Source: Lachnospiraceae bacterium
Lineage (GTDB): Bacteria; Bacillota; Clostridia; Lachnospirales; Lachnospiraceae
DNA: 64,000 bases
Direction of reading: 5' to 3'
NCBI GenBank assembly: GCA_024403455.1
Contig: JAKSRR010000001.1
Span: 107,646 to 171,645, forward strand
A model generated the notes under the pieces. The model was not told the origin of the DNA. It searched no databases and saw only the letters and a list, made by a program, of their open reading frames with translations. Positions 45,589-52,163 of this stretch are shown here, in pieces. Made by a program: the position numbers and the translations under genes. Numbering within the stretch: position 1 is the stretch's first letter; each line of letters begins with the position of its first letter.

Positions 45589-46332
45589 CTATAAATTACT
45601 TTTGATAAAATTGTAGATTTCTTTGCTAGTTGCACCAGAGTAATGAATACCATCCGAAGATTCAAAGCCAACACTCCATAAATAGGAATTACTATCGATA
45701 ATCCTTACATTAGGAAGAAGCTGCTCCATCATAGCCTCATTAAATTCATCAATCTTTTCATTGGTAACATTATAACCATGAGCCTTTGTTTTGGACTCAT
45801 CCACAGGGTTCACCGTAAGGAAGTATACCTGACAATTAAAGGCCCCTGCCATTTCATTTATCTTGCGAATGTATTTCTCCTGATTTCCTAAATCATTCAC
45901 TCCCATTCCAATAATGAGTGCCGTGTCTGTTGTAATCTCTGCCTGAATCTCCCCTAAATGCTGGCACAGATAGTAATAGCCCTCTCCCACTTCTGCGATA
46001 TAAACATCATTGCTTTCCTTACTCACCGATGACATGCCAACAAACCTAGAGTCGCCAACAAAAATGTATTGTCCATAATTGCCTGGTGTCACAGCATCAC
46101 CCTCTGCCTGATTTTCCGAAACTGCCCCCTCGAAATCAAACACTGGCATCTCTTTTTCCACGATATAGTTTGCGGAAAGCCCTGCAAACTTCGGTGTTTC
46201 CTCCGATAGCAAAATCCTAACGCCCAAAACAATAGCCACAATAGCAGCAACCATAAAAACTGCCGCTAGAATTCGCATCACCTTTGCGCCTGTGCTGTTG
46301 TGCGTTTTCTCATCGTTTCGCATCTTATGCAT
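45589..46332 (-). CDS. Membrane-anchored SGNH/GDSL hydrolase
   Basis: A 247-residue protein with one N-terminal membrane segment (about residues 19-40) and an extracellular SGNH hydrolase domain. All blocks are present: IFVGDSRFVGM near residue 90 (nucleophile Ser), IIGMGVNDLGN near 140 (block III Asn), and SSDGIHYSGATSKEIYNF near the end (catalytic Asp and His). It probably removes or transfers acyl groups on envelope polymers. Its start overlaps the pflA stop by 8 bases with GGAG just upstream, so it is translated from the pflA transcript although it has no evident role in PFL activation. Confidence 0.85.
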   Translation of the reverse strand: MHKMRNDEKTHNSTGAKVMRILAAVFMVAAIVAIVLGVRILLSEETPKFAGLSANYIVEKEMPVFDFEGAVSENQAEGDAVTPGNYGQYIFVGDSRFVGMSSVSKESNDVYIAEVGEGYYYLCQHLGEIQAEITTDTALIIGMGVNDLGNQEKYIRKINEMAGAFNCQVYFLTVNPVDESKTKAHGYNVTNEKIDEFNEAMMEQLLPNVRIIDSNSYLWSVGFESSDGIHYSGATSKEIYNFIKSNL

Positions 46333-47083
46333 TATTCTCCGCTCTTCTGCGCTTTAAACCTTCTAGAATCACTTTCTTCTTTTCTACTACTTTGCCTTTA
46401 TCCATAGCAGGCACATCTTTTAATCTGTATTCAATCCCCAGTTTCTCGTATTTGGGAAGTCCTAGGGTATGATATGGCAGAACATCTAATGCCTTTAAAC
46501 TCTTAAGACCACCAATAAAATATCCTAATTCATCCAGATACTGATCGTCATCGGTCCAGCCTGGTACGACCACGTGTCTAATCCAAATATCCACCCCTTT
46601 GTTGTCGATGTACTCTGCAAATGCCAAGATGCCATCATTGGGCTGCTGTACCAGTTCCAAATGCTTTTCAGGATTAATGTGTTTAATATCCAGCATAATT
46701 AGGTCTGTTACCGTAAGTAGCTTATCTAGTTTTTCTTTAAACACCATATTGTCCGGACGATAGGCTATCCCTGATGTATCAATGGTGGTGTGGATTCCCT
46801 GTGCCTTTGCCAAGGTAAATAAATCAATTAAAAAGTCCACCTGCATGAGAGGCTCGCCTCCCGTTACGGTGAGACCACCATCTTTATAAAAGCCGATATT
46901 CTTCAGCATCCCATCCATAATTTCCTGAGGAGACATCTCCGTACCTCCACCCATGTCCCAAGTATCTGGGTTATGGCAGTAGGCACAGCGCATAGGGCAG
47001 CCCTGCACGAATACTACATAACGTACGCCAGGACCATCAACCGTCCCAAAACTTTCTATGGAGTGAATTCTTCCGTTTGTCAT
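46325..47083 (-). CDS. pflA: Pyruvate formate-lyase activating enzyme (radical SAM)
   Basis: A 252-residue radical SAM enzyme that uses S-adenosylmethionine and a reduced [4Fe-4S] cluster to generate the glycyl radical in PFL. The cluster-binding motif CPMRCAYC is at about residues 29-36 (CxxxCxxC). The glycine-rich SAM motif LTVTGGEPLMQ is near residue 71, and LIMLDIKHINPEKHLEL is near 130. Length and motifs match PflA. It lies 222 bases downstream of the gene for the separate glycyl-radical domain, behind a terminator and its own -10 element. The SGNH gene overlaps its 3' end. Confidence 0.95.
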   Translation of the reverse strand: MTNGRIHSIESFGTVDGPGVRYVVFVQGCPMRCAYCHNPDTWDMGGGTEMSPQEIMDGMLKNIGFYKDGGLTVTGGEPLMQVDFLIDLFTLAKAQGIHTTIDTSGIAYRPDNMVFKEKLDKLLTVTDLIMLDIKHINPEKHLELVQQPNDGILAFAEYIDNKGVDIWIRHVVVPGWTDDDQYLDELGYFIGGLKSLKALDVLPYHTLGLPKYEKLGIEYRLKDVPAMDKGKVVEKKKVILEGLKRRRAENNA

Positions 47084-47179: not shown

Positions 47180-47239
47180 TCAAAAGGTAGATACACGAGA
47201 TTTCTTTTTGCTTCGCACTCTCGAAATCTCCAAAAACAT
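47180..47239 (-). repeat. Dispersed 60-bp repeat, copy A, with a 19-codon micro-ORF
   Basis: The minus strand reads as an open frame ATG...TGA encoding MFLEISRVRSKKKSRVSTF. A second copy at 60813-60872 has the same length and a closely similar peptide. Between 47187 and 47239 the two DNA copies share about four in five bases with no gap. The copy also contains the inverted pair GAGATTTC / GAAATCTC. It lies in the leader of pflA, just after an extended -10 element. Whether the peptide is made is unknown. Confidence 0.6.
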
Positions 47240-47243
47240 CATT

Positions 47244-47252
47244 ATTATACCA
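47244..47252 (-). promoter_or_regulatory. Extended -10 element for pflA
   Basis: The minus strand has TGGTATAAT (-10 at 47244-47249), just downstream of the terminator of the PFL small-subunit genes. It would start a transcript of about 155 bases of leader through repeat copy A into pflA. No clear -35 is visible because the terminator stem occupies that space. Confidence 0.45.
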
Positions 47253-47284
47253 CAAAAAAATCCCCACCGTTTTGGTGGGGATTC
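47252..47284 (-). terminator. Rho-independent terminator after the glycyl-radical domain gene
   Basis: The perfect stem AATCCCCACC / GGTGGGGATT with a 5-base loop is followed on the minus strand by seven T residues. It separates the PFL structural genes from pflA. Confidence 0.9.
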
Positions 47285-47305
47285 AAATCGCTTTCTTACG
47301 CTATA

Positions 47306-47554
47306 TTAGATTGCCTCATGGAAGGTTCTGGTAATAACGTCGTTCTGCTGTTCAGGAGTTAACTTAATGAAGTTAACTGCATATCCAGATACACGGATGG
47401 TAAGCTGAGGATAGTTCTCAGGATGAGCCTGTGCATCTAATAAAGTCTCTCTATTAAGAACGTTAACATTAAGATGATGACCACCTTTAGTTGCATATCC
47501 GTCTAATAAAGATACAAGATTGTTGATCTGTGCCTGACTTGCTTCTGCTGCCAT
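47306..47554 (-). CDS. Separate glycyl-radical domain of pyruvate formate-lyase (GrcA-like)
   Basis: An 82-residue protein matching the C-terminal domain of ordinary [13 protein letters not shown] is followed by [18 protein letters not shown], and then by the radical loop [13 protein letters not shown] and the PFL C-terminus ITRTF. The Gly in RVSGYAV (about residue 58) is the residue made into a radical by PflA. It is not a rescue copy as in E. coli GrcA/YfiD, because the large PFL chain in this locus stops before this domain. The start has a strong AAGGAGG. The gene lies 32 bases after the middle small gene and 22 bases before a terminator. Confidence 0.93.
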
Positions 47555-47586
47555 TTTATTTTCCTCCTTATAGGATAAGTTTACGC

Positions 47587-47799
47587 TTATGCGTCGATGC
47601 CTTCGTGAAGTGTGGGAACGCTACATGCCATAGGGGCACGGGAACAGTCGGTACATCCCATAGTCTCAACACTCTTCACGCCACTAGCCATTTCGTCAAC
47701 ATTTACGTTCACGTGACCAGTACCACTACCAAAGCCTGCGTCTAGTTGATTTACCAAATCTGCAATCATTTCTTCTTCCGTCATGCCTTCTTTAGCCAC
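47587..47799 (-). CDS. Small Cys-rich protein resembling the first half of the PFL glycyl-radical domain
   Basis: About 70 residues (76 if the GTG at 47817 is used; GGAG lies eight bases before the GTG at 47799). Residues around 15-36 ([11 protein letters not shown]...GHVNVNV) align with NLVSLLDGY...HHLNVNV of the neighbouring glycyl-radical protein. The second half has no RVSGYAV loop. It reads [21 protein letters not shown] instead, with a CxxC plus a later Cys that could bind a metal or Fe-S cluster or form disulfides. It sits between the PFL large chain and the radical-domain gene in one operon. I do not recognise a named family. A role as structural, protective or regulatory subunit of PFL is inference. 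Confidence 0.75.
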
Positions 47800-47890
47800 T
47801 TTAGCTTCTCCTTTCACAAAGAGTTCTCTATCTTACCGAGCAGATATATAACCTACGAAGATTATTTATCTAAGCTGTAAGTTTTCACCG

Positions 47891-47916
47891 GATGGCCGGC
47901 CTAGTAGCCAGCCATC
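47891..47916 (-). repeat. Intercistronic hairpin inside the PFL operon
   Basis: GATGGC-C-GGC and GCC-A-GCCATC pair around a CTAGTA loop (nine pairs, one mismatch). It lies in the 135-base gap between the PFL large-chain stop and the small Cys-rich gene. No T-run follows, so it is more likely an mRNA-processing or stability element that sets subunit ratios than a terminator. Confidence 0.6.
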
Positions 47917-47934
47917 AAGTGAGTTTGTAATTAA

Positions 47935-49989
47935 TTAGTTCTTAGAAAGGTCGATTTCGATGTCGCCAGCGAATACCTGATCTTCCTTACCAAGAGCACC
48001 AGGAATGATGGTGAAGGTATTGGAGATACCGTCCTGAGAATCCATGAAAGGAAGCTTAGAAACGGAGGATAAGGATGCAACTGCACCGTGGGTATCACGA
48101 CCGTGAAGAGGGTTTGCACCAGGTGCAAAAGGCTGTCCCTTCTTACGTCCATCAGGAGTGTTACCAGTTGCCTTACCGTAGGTTACGTTAGAGGTGATGG
48201 TAAGTACGGACATGGTAGGGAAACCATCTCTGTAGCAGTGATGTCTTCTGATCATCTTCATGAACTTAGATACAAGTTCCTGAGCGATGGAGTCAACACG
48301 ATCATCATCGTTACCATACTTAGGGAAGTCACCAGTAGTCTCGAAATCTACGATGATACCATCCTCGTCACGGATAGGCTTAACGGTTGCATACTTAATA
48401 GCGGATAAAGAGTCTGCTACTACGGAAAGACCTGCCATACCAGTTGCGAAGTAACGACGAACATCTCTGTCATGAAGAGCCATCTGTGCTCTCTCATAGC
48501 AGTACTTGTCGTGCATATAGTGAATTACGTTCAGGGTATTTACATAGGTAGCTGCAAGCCACTCCATCATATCCTCGAACATAGGCATAAACTCATCATA
48601 GGTGATTACATCGCCTTCGTACTTTCTGTACTTAGGGCCAACCTGCTTCTTGGATACTTCATCGATACCACCATTTAATGCATAAAGCATACATTTAGCA
48701 AGGTTTGCACGAGCTCCGAAGAACTGCATTTCCTTACCAACTCTCATGGAAGATACGCAGCAAGCGATAGCGTAGTCATCACCGTGGGTTACTCTCATTA
48801 AGTCATCGTTCTCATACTGGATGGAAGAAGACTTGATGGACATCTTAGCGCAGAATGCCTTCCAGTTCTGAGGAAGTCTGGTGGACCAAAGAACGGTTAA
48901 GTTAGGTTCAGGAGATGCACCAAGGTTGTTTAAGGTGTTCAGGTAACGGAAGGAAGACTTGGTTACCATGTGACGGCCATCAACACCAACACCACCAAGA
49001 GACTCGGTTACCCATACAGGGTCACCAGCAAAGATCTGGTTGTACTCAGGAGTACGAGCAAACTTAACAAGACGAAGCTTCATGATGAAGTGATCTACGA
49101 ATTCCTGAATCTGCTCTTCGGTGAAGGTACCATTCTTAAGGTCACGCTCTGCATAGCAGTCGATGAAGGTAGAGGTACGTCCAAGGGACATAGCTGCACC
49201 ATTCTGCTCCTTAACTGCGGAAAGGTATCCGAAGTAGGTAGCCTGGATTGCTTCCTGTACGTTAGAAGCGGGCTTAGAAATATCGCAACCATAGGAAGCT
49301 GCCATTTCCTTCATCATCTTCAGAGCTACCATCTGCTCGGAAAGCTCTTCACGAAGACGGATGGTATCATCAGTCATAATCTTGCCAGTAGATTCCTTCT
49401 GAGCAATCTTATCCTCGATCAGACGATCGATACCGTAAAGTGCGATTCTTCTGTAGTCACCAATGATACGACCACGGCCGTAAGCATCAGGAAGACCAGT
49501 AATTACGTGAGAAGAACGGCATGCACGCATCTCTTCGGTGTAAGCATCGAAGCAACCTGCATTGTGGGTCTTTCTGTGGGTAGAGAAGAACTCAGAGATT
49601 TCAGGATCTACAGTGTAACCATTGTCCTGGCAAGCCTTCTCTGCCATACGGATACCACCGTAAGGCTGCATGGAACGCTTGAAAGGCTTATCGGTCTGGA
49701 AACCAACGATGGTCTCTTTGCTCTTATCAAGATATCCAGGACCATGGGAAGTAATGGTGGAAATAACCTTGGTGTCCATATCAAGAACACCGCCTGCTTC
49801 ACGCTCCTTCTTGGAAAGCTCTAATACCTGGTTCCAAAGATCTGTGGTTGCCTGGGTGGGGCCTGCAAGGAAGGAATCATCTCCATCATAAGGGGTGTAG
49901 TTCTTCTGGATGAAGTCACGAACATTAATCTCGTTCTGCCACTTACCAGCATTGAAGCCTTCCCATTCGGGTCTACTTACTGTACTCAT
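47935..49989 (-). CDS. pflB: Pyruvate formate-lyase catalytic chain, lacking the glycyl-radical domain
   Basis: A 684-residue protein with clear PFL sequence: [40 protein letters not shown] near residue 141 and the active-site Cys-Cys pair in [26 protein letters not shown] near 412. [23 protein letters not shown] is near 635. Ordinary PFL is about 740-760 residues and continues into the glycyl-radical domain. Here it stops after [17 protein letters not shown], exactly before that domain, which is encoded 381 bases downstream as a separate protein. The enzyme converts pyruvate and CoA to acetyl-CoA and formate. The start has AGGAGG. It is not a frameshift, because the downstream piece has its own start and ribosome-binding site and another gene lies between them. 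Confidence 0.95.
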
Positions 49990-51989: not shown

Positions 51990-52163
51990 ATGGCATTTCA
52001 GATCGATTCTTCTGCTTGCATCTCTTGTGGTGCTTGTGCAGGTGGTTGCCCTGTAGGAGCAATCTCCGAAGGTGATGGCGCATTCCAGATTGATGCAGCA
52101 GCTTGCATCTCTTGCGGTGCTTGCGCTGGTGGTTGCCCTGTAAGCGCAATCTCCGAGGCTTAA
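51990..52163 (+). CDS. 2[4Fe-4S] ferredoxin, clostridial type
   Basis: A 57-residue protein with two classical cluster motifs CISCGACAGGCP at Cys 10, 13, 16, 20 and Cys 39, 42, 45, 49. It is the low-potential electron carrier of clostridial metabolism, reduced by pyruvate or H2 enzymes and used by oxidoreductases such as NfnAB. The two halves are almost identical: 23 of 26 aligned residues match at an offset of 29 residues, and so do 66 of 78 bases. AAAGGAGGA precedes the ATG. It is the second protein gene on the plus strand and is followed by a terminator, so it is a single-gene unit. Confidence 0.97.
   Translation: MAFQIDSSACISCGACAGGCPVGAISEGDGAFQIDAAACISCGACAGGCPVSAISEA

Follow-up and report, generated by a model that had tools for sequence, protein, structure and literature searches.

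The window analysed here, which is the whole 64,000-nucleotide stretch of contig JAKSRR010000001.1 (positions 107,646 to 171,645) from a Lachnospiraceae bacterium, contains a locus for pyruvate formate-lyase (PFL), a central, oxygen-sensitive enzyme of anaerobic fermentation which many gut and rumen bacteria build in two pieces. The pfl locus lies on the minus strand and comprises, in this order, the PFL core, a small cysteine-bearing protein, a stand-alone glycyl-radical domain (GRD), a terminator-like hairpin and pflA (Table 1). The small protein encoded between the two pieces of PFL is the subject of this study. The core covers positions 1-665 of the 744 of TIGR01255 (1093.7 bits) and ends, by alignment, at about residue 680 of E. 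coli PFL, just short of the GRD. Its active-site cysteine pair, C410-C411, is present and its tail is free of cysteine. The GRD gene, equivalent by alignment to residues 680-758 of E. coli PFL, has an intact RVSGYAV and scores 158.9 bits against the NCBIfam family GrcA3 (NF038360), whose cut-off is 158. A search of the window's genome (82% complete) for Gly_radical, with E up to 1, found matches only at the PFL core and the GRD gene.

Table 1. Features of the pfl locus, with coordinates in the window.
Feature	Coordinates	Strand	Size and evidence
Split PFL core (PflB without GRD)	47935..49989	-	684 amino acids (aa); TIGR01255, Pfam PFL-like
Strong RNA hairpin in the gap between core and small gene	47885..47922	-	RNA folding
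Small Cys-bearing GRD mimic	47587..47799	-	about 70 aa, open reading frame (ORF) open to 47817; family alignments, selection
Stand-alone GRD	47306..47554	-	82 aa; Pfam Gly_radical E 7.8e-24, NF038360
Intrinsic-terminator-like hairpin 3' of the GRD gene	47258..47284	-	pattern match on sequence
PflA, PFL-activating radical S-adenosylmethionine enzyme	46325..47083	-	TIGR02493, 286.2 bits (cut-off 231.75)

The ORF of the small protein (47587-47817, minus strand) likely starts at a GTG at 47799, 8 nt past a GGAG, which gives a protein of 70 aa. The initial annotation had noted that its N-terminal half resembles the neighbouring GRD, and this resemblance proved to be above chance: about 27-30 residues are homologous to the start of the GRD. 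BLASTP of the two window proteins alone gave an E-value of 4e-4, and in 109 of 110 small protein/GRD pairs from the same locus the score exceeded the highest of 110 shuffled scores. When 116 family members were aligned with 148 GRDs, profile against profile, in HHalign, the probability was 95.9 and the score 48.8, the best of 60 column-shuffled controls reaching 15.3; with the first alignments, made of close relatives, the probability was 74 (E 2.8e-5). When 50 members were scanned singly with E up to 0.5, GrcA3 was matched by 45 of them (best E 1.3e-6, window member 0.11) and no other family by more than one. The match covers positions 2-28 of the 78 of NF038360 with 12.4-12.6 bits, below the 158-bit cut-off. 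The shared stretch ends in (H/G)HxNVxV, which is taken to be strand beta-10. In PMC8683613 (excerpt), YfiD is proposed to take the place of beta-10 when oxygen has damaged E. coli PFL, and residues 696-733 of that enzyme must move aside, yet detectable YfiD binding needs them.

With regard to the C-terminal half, C-x2-C-x6-C and SVPTLHEG are present in the window protein, as had been pointed out, and this half does not align to the GRD. Neither the window protein nor the family sequences inspected have the RVSGYA radical-glycine loop; in the family, the C-half lacks the radical glycine and carries the motif C-x(4-9)-C-x-[VI]-P-T. The earlier description of a duplicated GRD that has lost its radical site is thus borne out for the homologous N-half and the missing site, but nothing visible marks the C-half as a decayed GRD. 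A possible likeness between ACSVPT of the small protein and ACCVSS of the PFL active-site loop was seen by eye.

The small protein is a member of an unnamed, strongly conserved family. The initial annotation knew no named family for it, and none was found above cut-off in Pfam, NCBIfam, PHROGs or PADLOC. Pfam Gly_radical (PF01228, gathering score 22.2) was matched neither by the window protein nor by 39 members, and a PDB sequence profile search with the family returned no named family and no glycyl radical enzyme (GRE) or subunit of one. The median ratio of nonsynonymous to synonymous substitution rates (dN/dS) was 0.057 over 242 non-independent pairs from 74 related loci, indicating strong purifying selection. 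D20 is invariant in 116 members, divergent sequences found by later profile searches among them, and H29 is kept in 113 and N31 in 114 (residues of the window protein counted from MAKEG); C52 is kept in 115, C59 in 113, P62 in 113 and T63 in 111, but C49 in only 83. Of the three cysteines pointed out earlier, the conserved pair is C52/C59, alongside H29 and P62-T63, whereas the first cysteine is dispensable. In 118 sequences, which include two orphan paralogues, the number of cysteines is two or three in 117 and four in one, and never below two. Their spacing is 2,6 in 76 of the 118 and varied in the others, including three with CxxC only. The small proteins of L097-L099, from two genera, end directly after CxxC (GCTxCxx, then the stop) and lack the ACxVPT end; no homologous continuation was found past their stop codon.

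A family of orphan paralogues (L079, L080, L081, L084-L089 and L162; for example L084, 2963-3208, plus strand) shares the same N-half and has a related end, YHHGRCDxGSPWAxGT. These genes are scattered, and none adjoins pfl in the fetched loci. An orphan paralogue was found in 28 of 250 family genomes (30 matched, two of them through the PFL small protein only), and 27 of the 28 are also listed with a PFL small gene when cross-read by hand. The divergent and orphan relatives match no named family; one, P0005, matches GrcA3 at 6.5e-4.

Co-occurrence of the small gene with split PFL had been put forward as a test, and it is close on the side of the small gene. In 74 of 74 related loci, found with scan patterns derived from the window protein so that conserved motifs are favoured among them, the PFL core is truncated before the GRD, and it is fused in none. 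The GRD gene is present in 73; in the remaining locus, L014, the contig ends first, and only in L065 does the GRD precede the small gene. Of 40 relatives, the small gene is present in 18 and a stand-alone GRD in 19, and 18 of these 19 GRD carriers also have the small gene; in the other one, G001, the GRD sits on a contig of 4.8 kb, in the first 4 kb of which there is no PFL core. The small gene is absent from all nine relatives whose only PFL-type GRD is fused. In a sample of 397 family genomes, at least 99 encode a full-length small protein (E up to 1.3e-8, reaching about profile position 50, a criterion that missed G168, found with a wider profile), and 98 of the 99 have a stand-alone GRD. 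Since stand-alone GRDs were taken from the best 150 matches, GRD counts among the 397 genomes are lower bounds. The GRD was among the matches listed in 91 of the 98 and in the fetched loci in six; in G058 it was deduced from a match to the N-half within a frame of 88 aa next to the small gene. In the remaining genome, G044, which is 67% complete, no GRD was matched. All five genomes for which a fused GRD is among the matches listed lack the small gene. The sample is rich in metagenome-assembled genomes (MAGs), some loci repeat a MAG or species, and some counts hinge on E-value cut-offs.

The small gene lies immediately before the GRD on the same strand in 87 genomes, with gaps of 22-224 nt (median 46, measured between profile matches). 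It is apart from both PFL core and GRD in G320, G335, G041 and G372, and some copies away from pfl adjoin genes that look like proB or moxR by eye. In L107 and L139 the order is PFL core, a pflA-like gene (named by eye) and GRD, and the small gene is elsewhere in the genome. The small gene also occurs in other families of the same order and class: among 17 loci fetched following these wider searches, 16 have it, always beside the GRD and in 15 cases with the PFL core in the stretch (in L156 the contig ends first), and the seventeenth, L162, is an orphan paralogue. A second stand-alone GRD was found in 28 genomes among the matches listed, all 28 with the small gene, and in none of the 26 genomes initially scored as lacking it (E up to 1e-18). 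These counts, which ignore kinship, fit a damage-control role of the small protein. Second GRDs away from pfl were seen in L141-L146 (for example L141, 3362-3658, plus strand) and follow a Crp/FNR-like gene, named by eye, in L141 and L144; they are probably GrcA-like spares.

The converse of this co-occurrence does not hold. The small gene first seemed to be missing from 26 of the 117 genomes for which a stand-alone GRD is listed; one of the 26, G168, has an unlinked copy, which leaves 25. A strict requirement of split PFL for the small gene was accordingly rejected. Under the refuting condition set by the initial annotation, genomes of this kind would count against its case, but their cores bear cysteine tails themselves. 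These 25 genomes led to the observation that the cysteine element can reside on the core itself. The wider profile that found the copy in G168 also gave weak matches of the small protein's C-half (E 0.001-0.006, in four genomes) at the extreme end of the PFL core, and the cores of all 25 genomes were found to carry a cysteine-bearing tail, such as ELDCPDEACRIPNLMEGLD or DLDCSNGACASPTLFEGLD. No tail cysteine occurs in any of the 110 cores that adjoin a small gene, nor in any of four with an unlinked small gene; a fifth unlinked case, L201 (G320), has one cysteine at the end of the conserved part of the core (KDCDV) and no tail motif. The 110 cores are loci rather than species, and the 26 "none" rows count G282 twice. 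This count leaves out cores truncated at a contig end and those lacking a DGISNT-type anchor, which also missed L201, and L020, L035 and near-identical rows were excluded from the set behind A1. The C-half profile scored a median of 18.6 bits on the cis tails, 18 of 25 beating all 30 of their own shuffles, against a median of -2.1 bits and a maximum of 3.2 on non-cis tails. The cis tails range from spaced cysteine pairs to CC and consist of the cysteine tail only, without a beta-10 segment.

The cysteine element is thus supplied either in trans, by the small protein, or in cis, by the tail of the core, and the two are mutually exclusive in the bacterial loci examined. A FastTree phylogeny of PFL with 119 rows requires at least nine changes between the cis and trans states, five of them forced by starred branches, gain and loss being indistinguishable; the pattern is therefore not one split into two clades. 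We read this as a gene-fusion type of link, according to which the cysteine element would belong to the split PFL core, at the site of the severed GRD, and the N-half, with its likeness to the GRD, would be an adaptor for this element when it is carried on a separate protein.

Given these observations, the reading that we slightly favour over its negation is that the small protein is a dedicated radical-free stand-in subunit of split PFL, which would complete the open barrel when the GRD is off and bring with it a protective cysteine pair. Because the split core stops before the segment which holds beta-10 and the glycine loop in E. coli PFL, it would form an open nine-stranded barrel without the GRD. 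The small protein appears to present the same helix-plus-strand segment as the GRD and could therefore occupy its docking site while the GRD is away, be it in the resting enzyme, during activation by PflA or after oxygen damage. The pair C52/C59 would then be brought to the mouth of the barrel in place of the glycine loop, where its thiols or a bound metal may guard the exposed active site by quenching or shielding it, until the real GRD displaces the small protein and yields the active enzyme. Lineages with the cysteine element fused to the end of the core would need no docking half. Docking in the GRD site is supported by an AlphaFold model in which core and small protein form one joined chain: the N-half is placed in the GRD position, in the register that the sequence predicts, and VIA-align agrees. 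The role of place-holder for the radical subunit, suggested by the initial annotation, fits this model. Exchange of the small protein with the GRD and the chemistry of the cysteines are what we infer from the whole.

Several points weigh against this reading. The linker-joined chain forces proximity by construction, and the docking comes from a single model without a negative control, which may recall PFL from training. The predicted local distance difference test score (pLDDT) of the block around the short strand is about 41, and that of the cysteine half 25-35; AlphaFold with a shallower alignment gave 35.7 and was not used. The C-half bears no similarity to the GRD, and seven of the 25 cis tails, with shorter clusters such as DCACCEPN and GCCSP, do no better than their own shuffles against the C-half profile. 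Kinship in the genome and cis/trans associations is reflected only through the count of state changes. Finally, the virus-labelled contigs L172/L190 and L191 have a split PFL with neither a cysteine tail nor a small gene in the fetched stretch.

A more far-reaching view, which remains doubtful although worth considering, is that split PFL is a two-state machine whose core alternates between a live GRD and either a dummy GRD in trans or a cysteine tail in cis, with a redox-active cysteine pair at the mouth of the barrel that stores or quenches the radical site. Since PFL is a dimer for which half-site reactivity has been proposed (PMC12338860, seen in excerpt), one protomer might hold the live domain and the other the dummy.

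Of the other explanations, the idea that the small protein is a loading factor, supplying the beta-10 segment for GRD binding, is unlikely. It draws on the lack of this segment in the natural split core and its presence in the small protein, on the position of the small gene directly before the GRD gene, and on E. coli, where detectable YfiD binding requires a segment that has beta-10 but no working glycine loop (PMC8683613, excerpt). That segment, residues 696-733 of oxygen-cleaved PFL, stays with the core and resembles the small protein in these respects, but is a covalent part of PFL and has no cysteine motif. Nevertheless, the cis version consists of the cysteine tail only, so that the part which is always kept is the cysteine element rather than beta-10. 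GrcA/YfiD and GrcA3 are likewise small partners of a PFL core without a working GRD, with a homologous N-half; unlike them, the small protein has a cysteine motif instead of the glycine radical loop.

A peripheral metal-cluster subunit, comparable to the small [4Fe-4S] subunits found in benzylsuccinate synthase (BSS) and 4-hydroxyphenylacetate decarboxylase (HPAD), is distinctly improbable. Subunits of the BSS/HPAD type have four cluster-ligating cysteines per [4Fe-4S] cluster, and a strict [4Fe-4S] ligand set was rejected for the small protein on its cysteine counts. The variable number and spacing of cysteines, in the small proteins and in the cis tails, and the PDB profile matches, which include no GRE subunit, further argue against this explanation, even though H29 and two or three cysteines could be ligands. 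According to the excerpt of PMC12590467, most GREs, including PFL, are single-polypeptide homodimers, further accessory subunits may be unannotated, small cysteine-bearing subunits are known, and one small subunit regulates thiyl-radical formation and promotes inactivation. The BSS beta and gamma and HPAD gamma subunits are, like the small protein, 7-10 kDa GRE partners with cysteine ligands; they bind [4Fe-4S] clusters, with a fold like that of high-potential iron-sulfur proteins in BSS, whereas the small protein has mostly two or three cysteines and a GRD-like N-half, and nothing in the excerpt says that those subunits are GRD-derived. A redox-sensing regulator acting on PflA, on degradation or on a partner other than the PFL core would account for the small genes away from pfl and for the scattered orphan paralogues, but fusion of the cysteine element to the core, exclusive with the small gene, points to the core as the site of action, and we regard such a regulator as very unlikely. 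As for a decaying duplicate or chance ORF, the likeness to a truncated GRD is outweighed by the low dN/dS, by the retention of D20, H29, C52 and C59 and by the upkeep of the gene even away from pfl; a pseudogene or chance ORF is refuted by this constraint, and the chance that the explanation is right seems negligible.

The virus-labelled contigs mentioned above are 73-110 kb long and encode a core and a separate GRD. In L172/L190, TGA must be read as a residue, and the GRD gene comes first, beside a gene that looks like NrdD by eye. A search of viral contigs with the small family found no relative.

The 129-nt region between the core and the small gene in the window folds with -45.7 kcal/mol (z -6.75). 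Among the 75 corresponding gaps of the window locus and the 74 related loci, z is below -2 in 26 of the 34 that are at least 45 nt long. An Rfam scan of 47200-48000 gave no match near a gathering score. The hairpin could possibly set the relative amounts of the core and small gene products. Elsewhere in the window, a 57-aa ORF (51990-52163, plus strand) has two CxxCxxCxxxC ferredoxin-type motifs in tandem halves and resembles, by eye, a small 2[4Fe-4S] ferredoxin.

Among titles and abstract beginnings of open-licence PMC articles, none was found on GRD-less PFL cores in these bacteria or on the small protein, and prior publication elsewhere is possible. Nearly every split PFL examined has a cysteine pair, either on a small helper or fused to the enzyme. 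The swap between cis and trans is a gene-fusion experiment done by nature, which connects the small protein with the PFL core and opens its role to direct testing. Split PFL also offers a natural truncated-PFL system for studying how a radical domain docks, leaves and is replaced. If the two-state view were true, the AC-x-VP cysteine motif would be an obligatory part, unrecognised until now, of a large class of PFLs.
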